Notes under the pieces: model-generated
Database searches by the model: none
What the model was told of the DNA's origin: nothing
The model's input: the letters and a program-made list of their open reading frames with translations, nothing else
Translations under genes and position numbers: made by a program
Shown here: in pieces, positions 5,522 through 41,926 of the stretch
Numbering within the stretch: the stretch's first letter is position 1
Layout of the letters: each line of letters opens with the position of its first letter
Source: a virus
DNA: 42,388 nucleotides
IMG/VR virus record: IMGVR_UViG_3300030101_003966
Location: 5,913 to 48,300 of that record
Reading direction: 5' to 3' (one strand)

Positions 5522-6124
5522 ATGTATATGGGTGACGTAAAGTCGAAAACTTTTATCGACACAAATGCTTCTTCTACTACTTTTGTTGCTGTTGCTGCTC
5601 AACCAACGACTACGTTTACTTTAGCAAAAACTTCTTTTGGTACGAACACAGCCAGAAAAATTACAGCTACAACTTCGGGATCGGGTGATAGTGGCAAAAC
5701 GATAACTATTGTCGGAACTGATGAAAATGGAGATGCTCTTACTGAGGTGATTACTTTACCAGGTTCAGCTACGACAACTTCTGGGACAACAGGTGCTTTT
5801 TTAACAATAACTTCAGCTACTGTTAGTGCACAACCTGCAGCCAACGTTTCTTTAGGTATGACTGCTGATGTTTTTGGAGGTATTTTTGCAGGAAGAACAA
5901 GAGTTAGACAAGCTAACGTAGCATCAGGTGGTGCTATTGGTAGTGTCGAAGTAAGAAACGAAAGTATTACTGGAGATTCTTTATTAACAGTTAGAACAAG
6001 TGCAACTGAAGGAAATATAAGCACTATTAACATTCCTCAAGATGGAATTCTTTATAAAAATGGTGCTTTTGTTACTTTTTCAGAGGTAAGTTGTAATTCA
6101 GTAACTGTTTATTTTGATGCTTAA
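5522..6124 (+). CDS. Putative virion protein, beta-rich, 200 aa
   Basis: The protein is rich in Thr, Ser, Ala, Gly and Val. A segment around 55-85 (ITIVGTDENGDALTEVITLP) resembles small repeated beta modules of phage decoration or tail proteins. There are few charged residues and no membrane segment. It follows the UUCG hairpin and shares composition with the gene upstream. No family name can be given with confidence. Confidence 0.65.
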   Translation: MYMGDVKSKTFIDTNASSTTFVAVAAQPTTTFTLAKTSFGTNTARKITATTSGSGDSGKTITIVGTDENGDALTEVITLPGSATTTSGTTGAFLTITSATVSAQPAANVSLGMTADVFGGIFAGRTRVRQANVASGGAIGSVEVRNESITGDSLLTVRTSATEGNISTINIPQDGILYKNGAFVTFSEVSCNSVTVYFDA

Positions 6125-40820: not shown

Positions 40821-40989
40821 AGAATTTTTTACCATAGAATTAGATCTTGAAAACAACAATGTAACTTTATACGTTAATGGAGAGCTTAGAAATAAAATAC
40901 ATTCAGTTAAATCAGAGTCATTATTTGATCGAATGTTGAAAATTGCAAAATTAAAATTTCTTAAAATGAGAGACAGAGTTGAACAATAA
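40795..40989 (+). CDS. Small hypothetical protein, 64 aa
   Basis: I chose ATG 40795, 6 bases after GGAG, instead of ATG 40783 which has no Shine-Dalgarno. The protein has a beta segment (FFTIELDLENNNVTLYVNGE) followed by a basic helix (FDRMLKIAKLKFLKMRDRVE). It overlaps the previous and next genes by 26 and 11 bases. No family recognised. Confidence 0.55.
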   Translation: MDLKKIKGKEFFTIELDLENNNVTLYVNGELRNKIHSVKSESLFDRMLKIAKLKFLKMRDRVEQ

Positions 40990-41926
40990 ACTCAAAGTAT
41001 TAGATTTATTTAGTGGTATTGGTGGTTTTAGTTTGGGTCTTCACTCTACTGGTATATTTGATACAGTAAAGTTTGTAGAGTTTGATAAATTTTGTCAGAA
41101 AGTTTTACAAAAAAATTTTCCTGATGTTCCAATAGAAGGAGATATAAGAGATGTCAAAGGAGAAGAATTTGAAGCAGATGTCATTACTGGAGGATTCCCA
41201 TGTCAATCATTTAGCGTTGCAGGAAAACAAAAAGGAACAAACGACAACAGATATCTCTGGCCAGAAATGTTTAGACTCATTAAAGAAATTAAACCAGAAT
41301 TCGTTATTGGGGAGAATGTGCAAGGCCTTATTAACATCCAAAACGGCATGGTACTCAGACAGGTGCAAGACCAGTTGGAAAGTGAAGGTTTCGAAGTCCA
41401 ATGTTTCCTTATTCCAGCTTCAGGCATCGGTGCTTGGCATCAAAGGAACAGAGTCTGGATTATTGGCCACTCCAAATACAATGGATTACTTGCCTCCGAG
41501 AAGTGCAGCAGGAACAAAAAAATTAATGGAGGGACACAGGAAGGGCAGAACCAGACCATCGAATCTAAGAGAACAAGTGGATCCAGAAACGATAAAAATG
41601 TATCCAACACCAAATGCAACGAACATAAATACGCCACAATCAGACAGAGTAGAATTCAACAAATCTGGGGGTTTTACTCTGAGAAAGAAAAACAAACCGC
41701 ACATGACTTACGGGGCCAGACTTCAAGATGCGATGGAATTCCTGGACAAAAAACCTGGTGGCAAATTGAATGCGACCTTTGTGGAGTTCCTGATGGGATT
41801 TCCGCAGTCATGGACAAAGATAGAGCCGACAGAATAAAAAGTTTAGGTAATGCAATAGTCCCACAAATTGCAAGAGAAATAGGTTTAGCTTTAAAAAAAG
41901 TTTTAATTGAGGATGGTAGAGAATGA
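40979..41926 (+). CDS. dcm: DNA C5-cytosine methyltransferase
   Basis: 315 aa from a TTG start. Motifs in order: I LDLFSGIGGFSLGL, II-III VEFDKFC, IV ADVITGGFPCQSFS (catalytic Cys in PCQ), VI VIGENVQGL, VIII WHQRNRVWIIG and X RIKSLGNAIVPQIA. Between VIII and X lies a short variable region, of low complexity and rich in Lys, Asn, Ser and Thr, where the target-recognition domain belongs. It then has WWQIECDLCGVPDG, also found in relatives. No restriction enzyme is nearby, so it is an orphan. A second frame (41151-41837) is open inside it. Confidence 0.9.
   Translation: MNNKLKVLDLFSGIGGFSLGLHSTGIFDTVKFVEFDKFCQKVLQKNFPDVPIEGDIRDVKGEEFEADVITGGFPCQSFSVAGKQKGTNDNRYLWPEMFRLIKEIKPEFVIGENVQGLINIQNGMVLRQVQDQLESEGFEVQCFLIPASGIGAWHQRNRVWIIGHSKYNGLLASEKCSRNKKINGGTQEGQNQTIESKRTSGSRNDKNVSNTKCNEHKYATIRQSRIQQIWGFYSEKEKQTAHDLRGQTSRCDGIPGQKTWWQIECDLCGVPDGISAVMDKDRADRIKSLGNAIVPQIAREIGLALKKVLIEDGRE
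41151..41837 (+). CDS. Overlapping frame inside dcm, product of a recurrent phage protein type
   Basis: 228 aa, frame +1 relative to dcm. The product does not look random: ISGQKCLDSL, TAWYSDRCKTSWKVKVSKSN, VSLFQLQASV, ESGLLATPNTMDYLPPRSAA, GRTRPSNLREQVDPETIK, MYPTPNATN and GKLNATFVEFLMGFPQSWTK. I recall these blocks from many phage proteins that sit with cytosine methyltransferases, where the ending usually reads LNP-FVEWLMGFP-GWT. The dcm frame keeps motifs VI, VIII and X over the same bases. It could be a real second protein, or trace of an alternative recognition domain reached by frameshift. ATG 41151 follows AAGAG. Confidence 0.6.
   Translation: MSKEKNLKQMSLLEDSHVNHLALQENKKEQTTTDISGQKCLDSLKKLNQNSLLGRMCKALLTSKTAWYSDRCKTSWKVKVSKSNVSLFQLQASVLGIKGTESGLLATPNTMDYLPPRSAAGTKKLMEGHRKGRTRPSNLREQVDPETIKMYPTPNATNINTPQSDRVEFNKSGGFTLRKKNKPHMTYGARLQDAMEFLDKKPGGKLNATFVEFLMGFPQSWTKIEPTE

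Follow-up and report, generated by a model that had tools for sequence, protein, structure and literature searches.

A reading frame nested in a phage C5-cytosine methyltransferase gene, proposed to encode the target-recognition subunit of the same enzyme

The locus and its two reading frames

The window analyzed is a stretch of 42,388 nucleotides (positions 5,913 to 48,300) of the 48.3 kb IMG/VR virus record IMGVR_UViG_3300030101_003966, which also encodes a phage DNA polymerase, helicase, primase and virion genes. It contains a C5-cytosine methyltransferase gene (frame 1, F1) and, wholly nested within it in the +1 frame of the same strand, a second open frame (frame 2, F2). A sequence-only reading had placed 687 bases open in two same-strand frames at 41151-41837, and these coordinates proved exact. 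In the features listed below and throughout, N and S denote nonsynonymous and synonymous change, the digit that follows denotes the frame, and the values are relative rates.

40979..41926, + strand: F1, C5-cytosine methyltransferase, catalytic (alpha) subunit, 315 residues, TTG start, motifs I-VIII and X (Pfam, PHROGs, HhaI alignment)
41136..41141, + strand: Shine-Dalgarno sequence AAGGAG of F2, 9 nt 5' of the F2 ATG (sequence; same layout in relatives)
41145..41147, + strand: F2-frame stop TAA just 5' of the F2 start (sequence)
41151..41837, + strand: F2, proposed beta subunit (target recognition and motif IX), 228 residues, +1, wholly nested in F1 (ATG, homologues, recoding, selection)
41151..41462, + strand: N-terminal segment of F2, residues 1-104, with conserved W76 and LTWK/FQL/SGLW-like blocks, lying over motifs IV-VIII; proposed docking part (alignment; S1N2 48 versus S1S2 135)
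41192..41215, + strand: motif IV of F1, GFPCQSFS, with the catalytic Cys (sequence)
41312..41320, + strand: motif VI of F1, ENV (sequence)
41441..41467, + strand: motif VIII of F1, QRNRVWIIG (sequence)
41463..41600, + strand: recognition-type module 1 of F2, LATPNTMDY... (sequence, module comparison)
41468..41842, + strand: F1 bridge from motif VIII to motif X, open, with amino-acid changes at about the synonymous rate (N1S2 83 versus S1 94 in the F1-only region)
41601..41759, + strand: recognition-type module 2 of F2, YPTPNATNIN... (sequence, module comparison)
41760..41813, + strand: motif-IX-like block of F2, GKLNATFVEFLMGFPQSW (position and weak sequence likeness)
41843..41866, + strand: motif X of F1, LGNAIVPQ, within SLGNAIVPQ (sequence)

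F1 matches PF00145 (DNA_methylase) of Pfam along its span (E = 5.8e-56) and phrog_363 of PHROGs (3.5e-75), and HhaI aligns to its residues 5-162 (1.7e-25), covering motifs I-VIII. The motifs by which a C5-cytosine methyltransferase is recognized (I, PCQ in IV, ENV in VI, QxRxR in VIII, and X) are all present in F1, among them motifs VI, VIII and X that the sequence-only reading had reported. In a monomeric enzyme of this type, one chain carries a recognition domain and motif IX in the interval from motif VIII to motif X, a composition that F1 does not have; inspection of the F1 bridge, where the amino acids are near neutral, found no motif IX.

F2 has no catalytic methyltransferase motifs. It reads through the blocks that had been quoted for it and matches phrog_1008, labeled 'DNA methyltransferase' (E = 1.7e-23), as do F2 proteins of all clades tested; the label hides that the members are without catalytic motifs and are placed at +1 in a true methyltransferase gene. 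F2 had been described as covering almost all of the catalytic half of the gene after motif IV; it does lie over motifs IV-VIII and the bridge, but it starts just before motif IV. Among 264 related F2 genes, a Shine-Dalgarno-like site is found at 67% of F2 starts versus 14% of internal F2-frame ATGs, and an F2-frame stop lies no more than 12 codons upstream of the F2 start in 230 of 260 relatives. F1 codons of the GDI stretch may supply part of the Shine-Dalgarno signal, so that initiation at F2 is supported and not proved. A frame entered from F1 by programmed frameshifting would have no start of its own; F2 has a conserved ATG, a Shine-Dalgarno sequence and an upstream stop.

Conservation of the nested layout and selection on both frames

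When the F1 protein was held fixed and its codons were redrawn synonymously according to phage usage, uniform usage or its own usage (20,000 draws each), F2 was open in none of the 60,000 draws and contained a mean of 8-14 stops. The F2 open frame is far beyond chance, and an origin by chance was rejected. The GC content is 0.40-0.45 in the overlap and about 0.30 outside it.

Homologous loci, about 370 in all, were gathered by searching viral contigs four times with F2 queries from different clades and once with a single-chain relative, and bacterial genomes once; they were classed by the placement of motif IV, an LNP...LMG block and motif X. F2 is nested at +1 with motif X in F1 in 324 of the 332 classifiable loci; four loci are split, with motif X in F2, four records are single-chain (two of them being the same contig), and none is offset by -1. 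Most of the 37 unclassified loci run off a contig end or escaped the motif patterns, and of 17 read by eye most were nested too, with a few broken or fused. Of the 80 closest viral loci, nearly all have both frames intact; a few are cut by contig ends, and one (L014) has a single stop in F2. The median overlap across the family is 812 nt and takes up about 79% of the large gene. The hosts named in the records of the bacterial-genome scan include Bacillota, Bacteroidota, Proteobacteria, Spirochaetes, Acidobacteria, Chloroflexi, Verrucomicrobia, Synergistetes and others. Paenibacillus larvae phages have both frames annotated as DNA-cytosine methyltransferase, and Escherichia phage K1ind2, which carries the pair, also has annotations for both; further named carriers are Vibrio phage Vaitephage, Lacticaseibacillus phage R9.1 and phage C72C1. 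In two loci (L103, L355) the front of F1 continues into the end of F2 in one frame and without motif X, which may reflect decay or draft-sequence errors.

Substitution patterns were obtained from 53 non-redundant close relatives. At the ends of the gene where F1 alone is read, third codon positions vary at 0.40-0.47 and first positions at 0.17-0.22, which is the usual pattern; in the overlap the third positions of F1, which are the second positions of F2, are down to 0.13-0.25, and in the module and motif IX region the most variable positions are the first of F1, which are the third of F2. The drop at F1 third positions in the overlap was seen again in three other clades. The class rates, which are estimates from non-independent pairs and, in the module region, from an alignment built on F1, were 8 (N1N2), 22 (N1S2), 48 (S1N2) and 135 (S1S2) over motifs IV-VIII, and 38, 83, 32 and 59, respectively, over the module and motif IX region, with an S1 rate of 94 at the F1-only start. 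These rates imply that both proteins are constrained in the half containing motifs IV-VIII, F1 more strongly, and that in the other half F2 is constrained while F1 drifts near the synonymous rate. F1 and F2 are an overprinted gene pair, both open in homologues and both under purifying selection. The sequence-only reading had proposed a long conserved overprinted gene with both frames selected, and the number of nested loci and the synonymous constraint in the overlap bear it out; the outcomes it had named as contrary, namely stops in F2 of homologues and a lack of synonymous constraint, turned out the opposite way.

In 19 close relatives, F2 reads on past the F1 stop for another 125-170 codons, where substitutions follow an ordinary coding pattern (0.15/0.07/0.35). 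This C-terminal extension of 125-170 residues (TTIDHWLRSDHCFAYPT...W), which lies in a single frame downstream of the F1 stop in L001, L013, L037, L040, L057 and others, had no significant match in Pfam.

Recognition-type modules, a motif-IX-like block and rearranged relatives

F2 proteins have from 0 to 7 modules, each of which opens with [YWFL]xTP. At 60% identity the 711 modules form 188 families, and one family recurs at different positions with different neighbors. The feature that characterizes multispecific phage C5-cytosine methyltransferases, several exchangeable modules between motifs VIII and IX, is present. In such enzymes of the Bacillus phages SPR, phi3T and their relatives, several recognition modules lie side by side in the variable region. 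Those enzymes, for which PMC12707154 cites Trautner et al. 1996, are single-chain and single-frame; F1, by contrast, has to stay open through modules that are read in F2. Insertions in F2 relatives likewise leave both frames open. It is conceivable, at somewhat less than even chances, that many phage genes taken for 'orphan Dcm' encode two-subunit enzymes in which specificity resides in a subunit made up of recombining recognition cassettes, all in the +1 frame of the catalytic gene, with the two frames partly overprinted on each other; the cassettes would be swapped as DNA units open in both frames, and specificity could change with a constant catalytic subunit.

Relatives with other arrangements hold the same parts. 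Motifs I-VIII, PTP modules, an LNPxWVExLMGFP block and motif X follow one another in a single frame in L370, L116, L122 and Mycobacterium phage JoeyJr gp71. Such single-chain relatives are rare, and their motif-IX-like block is LNPxWVEWLMGFP or of the LxPxFVExLMGFP type. The N-terminal segment of about 100 residues of F2 is absent from the single-chain proteins, with open +1 relics in L116, L122 and JoeyJr. In the split relatives (L100, L114, L117, L119, Kampy gp78/gp77 and phiBT1), F1 stops after motif VIII, the F1 bridge is interrupted by stops or absent, and the +1 partner contains modules, block IX and then motif X. In Paenibacillus phage Tadhana, the F1 segment with motif X (QYDWEPARIETGVQNRVGRLKALGNAV) corresponds to QYEWEPPRVATGVKNRVPRLKACGNAV in F2 of L100; thus, motif X can switch frame, and the LNP...LMG block stays with the modules.

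Since the modules stand where single-chain enzymes have target recognition, they may be equated with the recognition region and the block that follows them with motif IX. A position-specific matrix for motif IX, with 18 canonical enzymes including E. coli Dcm (RRLTPRECARLMGFE) as the reference, was applied to the 15-mers of F2, and the LNP...LMG block was the top-scoring 15-mer in 57 of 76 proteins; a small HMM built for canonical motif IX distinguished F2 only weakly from shuffled sequences. Searches of solved structures with profiles of F2 or the IX-X segment returned no methyltransferase, so that the identification goes by position and weak sequence likeness, according to which the block is most likely motif IX. 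AlphaFold2 modeled F2 alone poorly (pLDDT 66, pTM 0.34), and no fold match for this model was found. In the model of the single-chain L370, the catalytic domain and the motif IX/X helices are confident and the modules are disordered; Foldseek aligned essentially only its catalytic domain to HhaI and HaeIII, which leaves the small domain without structural proof.

Two of the split relatives have annotations of their own. In phiBT1 (L378, 1135-1635 and downstream), gp9.1 is annotated 'DNA methylase may be inactive', and the un-annotated stretch before gp11 contains modules, motif IX and motif X in the +1 frame, which is likely the missing second subunit of gp9.1. In Kampy (L372, 1417-2512), two 'DNA methylase' genes lie side by side, of which gp78 corresponds to motifs I-VIII and gp77, in +1, to the modules with motifs IX and X, and the true start of gp77 is probably upstream of the annotated one.

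A predicted two-polypeptide enzyme and its alternatives

The locus very probably encodes a two-polypeptide C5-cytosine methyltransferase from overlapping frames, in which F1 would be catalytic and F2, made by internal initiation, would provide target recognition and motif IX. Translation of F1 would give the large catalytic subunit with motifs I-VIII and X, and ribosomes initiating at the internal +1 ATG with its own Shine-Dalgarno sequence would give the small subunit, consisting of an N-terminal part over motifs IV-VIII for docking, at least one 'YPTP' module and a motif-IX-like end. The first 100 residues of F2 may stand in for the covalent link of single-chain enzymes. F2 is predicted to bind F1 and to set the target specificity of the single enzyme so assembled, which would methylate phage DNA and presumably protect it from host restriction, as phage methyltransferases usually do.

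In M.EcoHK31I (YGGCCR), the small gene is reportedly nested in the large one in another frame. M.EcoHK31I is a two-polypeptide C5-cytosine methyltransferase with motif IX on the small polypeptide and motifs I-VIII and X on the large one (PMC3404938), a division that the F1/F2 layout shares as judged from sequence, with a motif IX likeness that is weak but correctly placed. Its recognition domain is predicted to be in the large subunit (PMC3404938), whereas selection and the single-chain relatives point to recognition by an array of variable modules in the nested frame of F1/F2. M.AquI (CYCGRG) is also a two-polypeptide enzyme, with motifs I-VIII and part of the variable region in the large subunit. 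Its arrangement, in which the small subunit carries both motif IX and motif X, is seen only in L100, L114, L117, L119, Kampy and phiBT1; in the window, by contrast, the large subunit keeps motif X and the small gene lies entirely inside the large one. The principle is the same as in M.EcoHK31I and M.AquI; what is new in the F1/F2 family is its breadth, the proposed recognition in a nested frame and the shuffling of up to seven dual-coded modules. No paper on the nested phage family was found among the openly licensed papers searched, and the hidden HNH frame in the phage methylase of ShiLan (PMC11855218) is a different thing from F2.

Three other explanations were weighed. F2 might be an independent overprinted protein, such as an anti-restriction factor, a regulator or a decoy, that merely shares the methyltransferase DNA, and its own start and Shine-Dalgarno sequence, the selection acting on it and the failure to detect a fold relation would all suit such a protein. 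That F2 is independent is nevertheless improbable, given that its modules and LNPxWVExLMGFP block occur in one chain with motifs I-VIII and X, that motif X shifts into F2 in split relatives, and that no intact F2 without a frame-1 partner was found among the approximately 370 loci gathered. A free-standing unrelated gene was rejected, and split and single-chain relatives place F2 as the recognition/motif-IX part of the same enzyme. Among the roles offered by the sequence-only reading, that of a partner fits best, and that of a decoy found no support. Its third suggestion, a different recognition module joined by frameshift, was nearly right about recognition, but the frameshift is unsupported in the nested forms. 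A programmed +1 frameshift after motif VIII, yielding a trans-frame protein in which motifs I-VIII are joined to the recognition part of F2, would accord with the offset between F1 and F2, which is always +1, and with the natural single-chain relatives, which have exactly that order. Because F2 has its own start, Shine-Dalgarno sequence and upstream stop and motif X is back in F1 in all but eight of the classifiable loci, such joining would require a second shift, and the start, Shine-Dalgarno sequence and N-terminal 100 codons of F2 are conserved even though the frameshift product would not use them; this explanation is very unlikely, and a frameshift fusion was rejected.

F1 might also suffice on its own as a methyltransferase, carrying its recognition domain in the bridge that runs from motif VIII to motif X, with F2 kept open by codon composition or for a minor role. 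F1 is continuous, the Pfam DNA_methylase match spans it, and the prediction for the large subunit of M.EcoHK31I is a precedent. The amino acids of the bridge, however, change at about the synonymous rate while F2 is held, the bridge is stop-interrupted or missing in split relatives, and no recoding left F2 open by composition, all of which make a self-sufficient F1 most improbable.

If the two-subunit interpretation is correct, a very common class of phage methyltransferases is misannotated as one protein, as two unrelated 'methyltransferases' or, like phiBT1 gp9.1, as inactive, and half of the enzyme is hidden in the +1 frame of such genes; the interpretation would then predict which protein to add to 'dead' phage methyltransferases and where their specificity lies. 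F1/F2 is a long, widespread and conserved same-strand overlap in double-stranded DNA phages, and offers a ready system for studies of two proteins encoded by one sequence.

Some individual loci have peculiarities of their own. A Roseovarius MAG (OX638333) has five apparently identical nested loci (L331-L335) on a single chromosome, which may be repeated prophages or an artifact of assembly, and the Oscillospiraceae genome that contains L304 (G006) has 25 dcm-family matches. In the closest phage relative (L083, KT997847, 1794-2719; 58% in F2), F1 starts in one frame and continues in another, and it is F2 rather than F1 that carries the CDS annotation 'putative cytosine-specific methyltransferase'.
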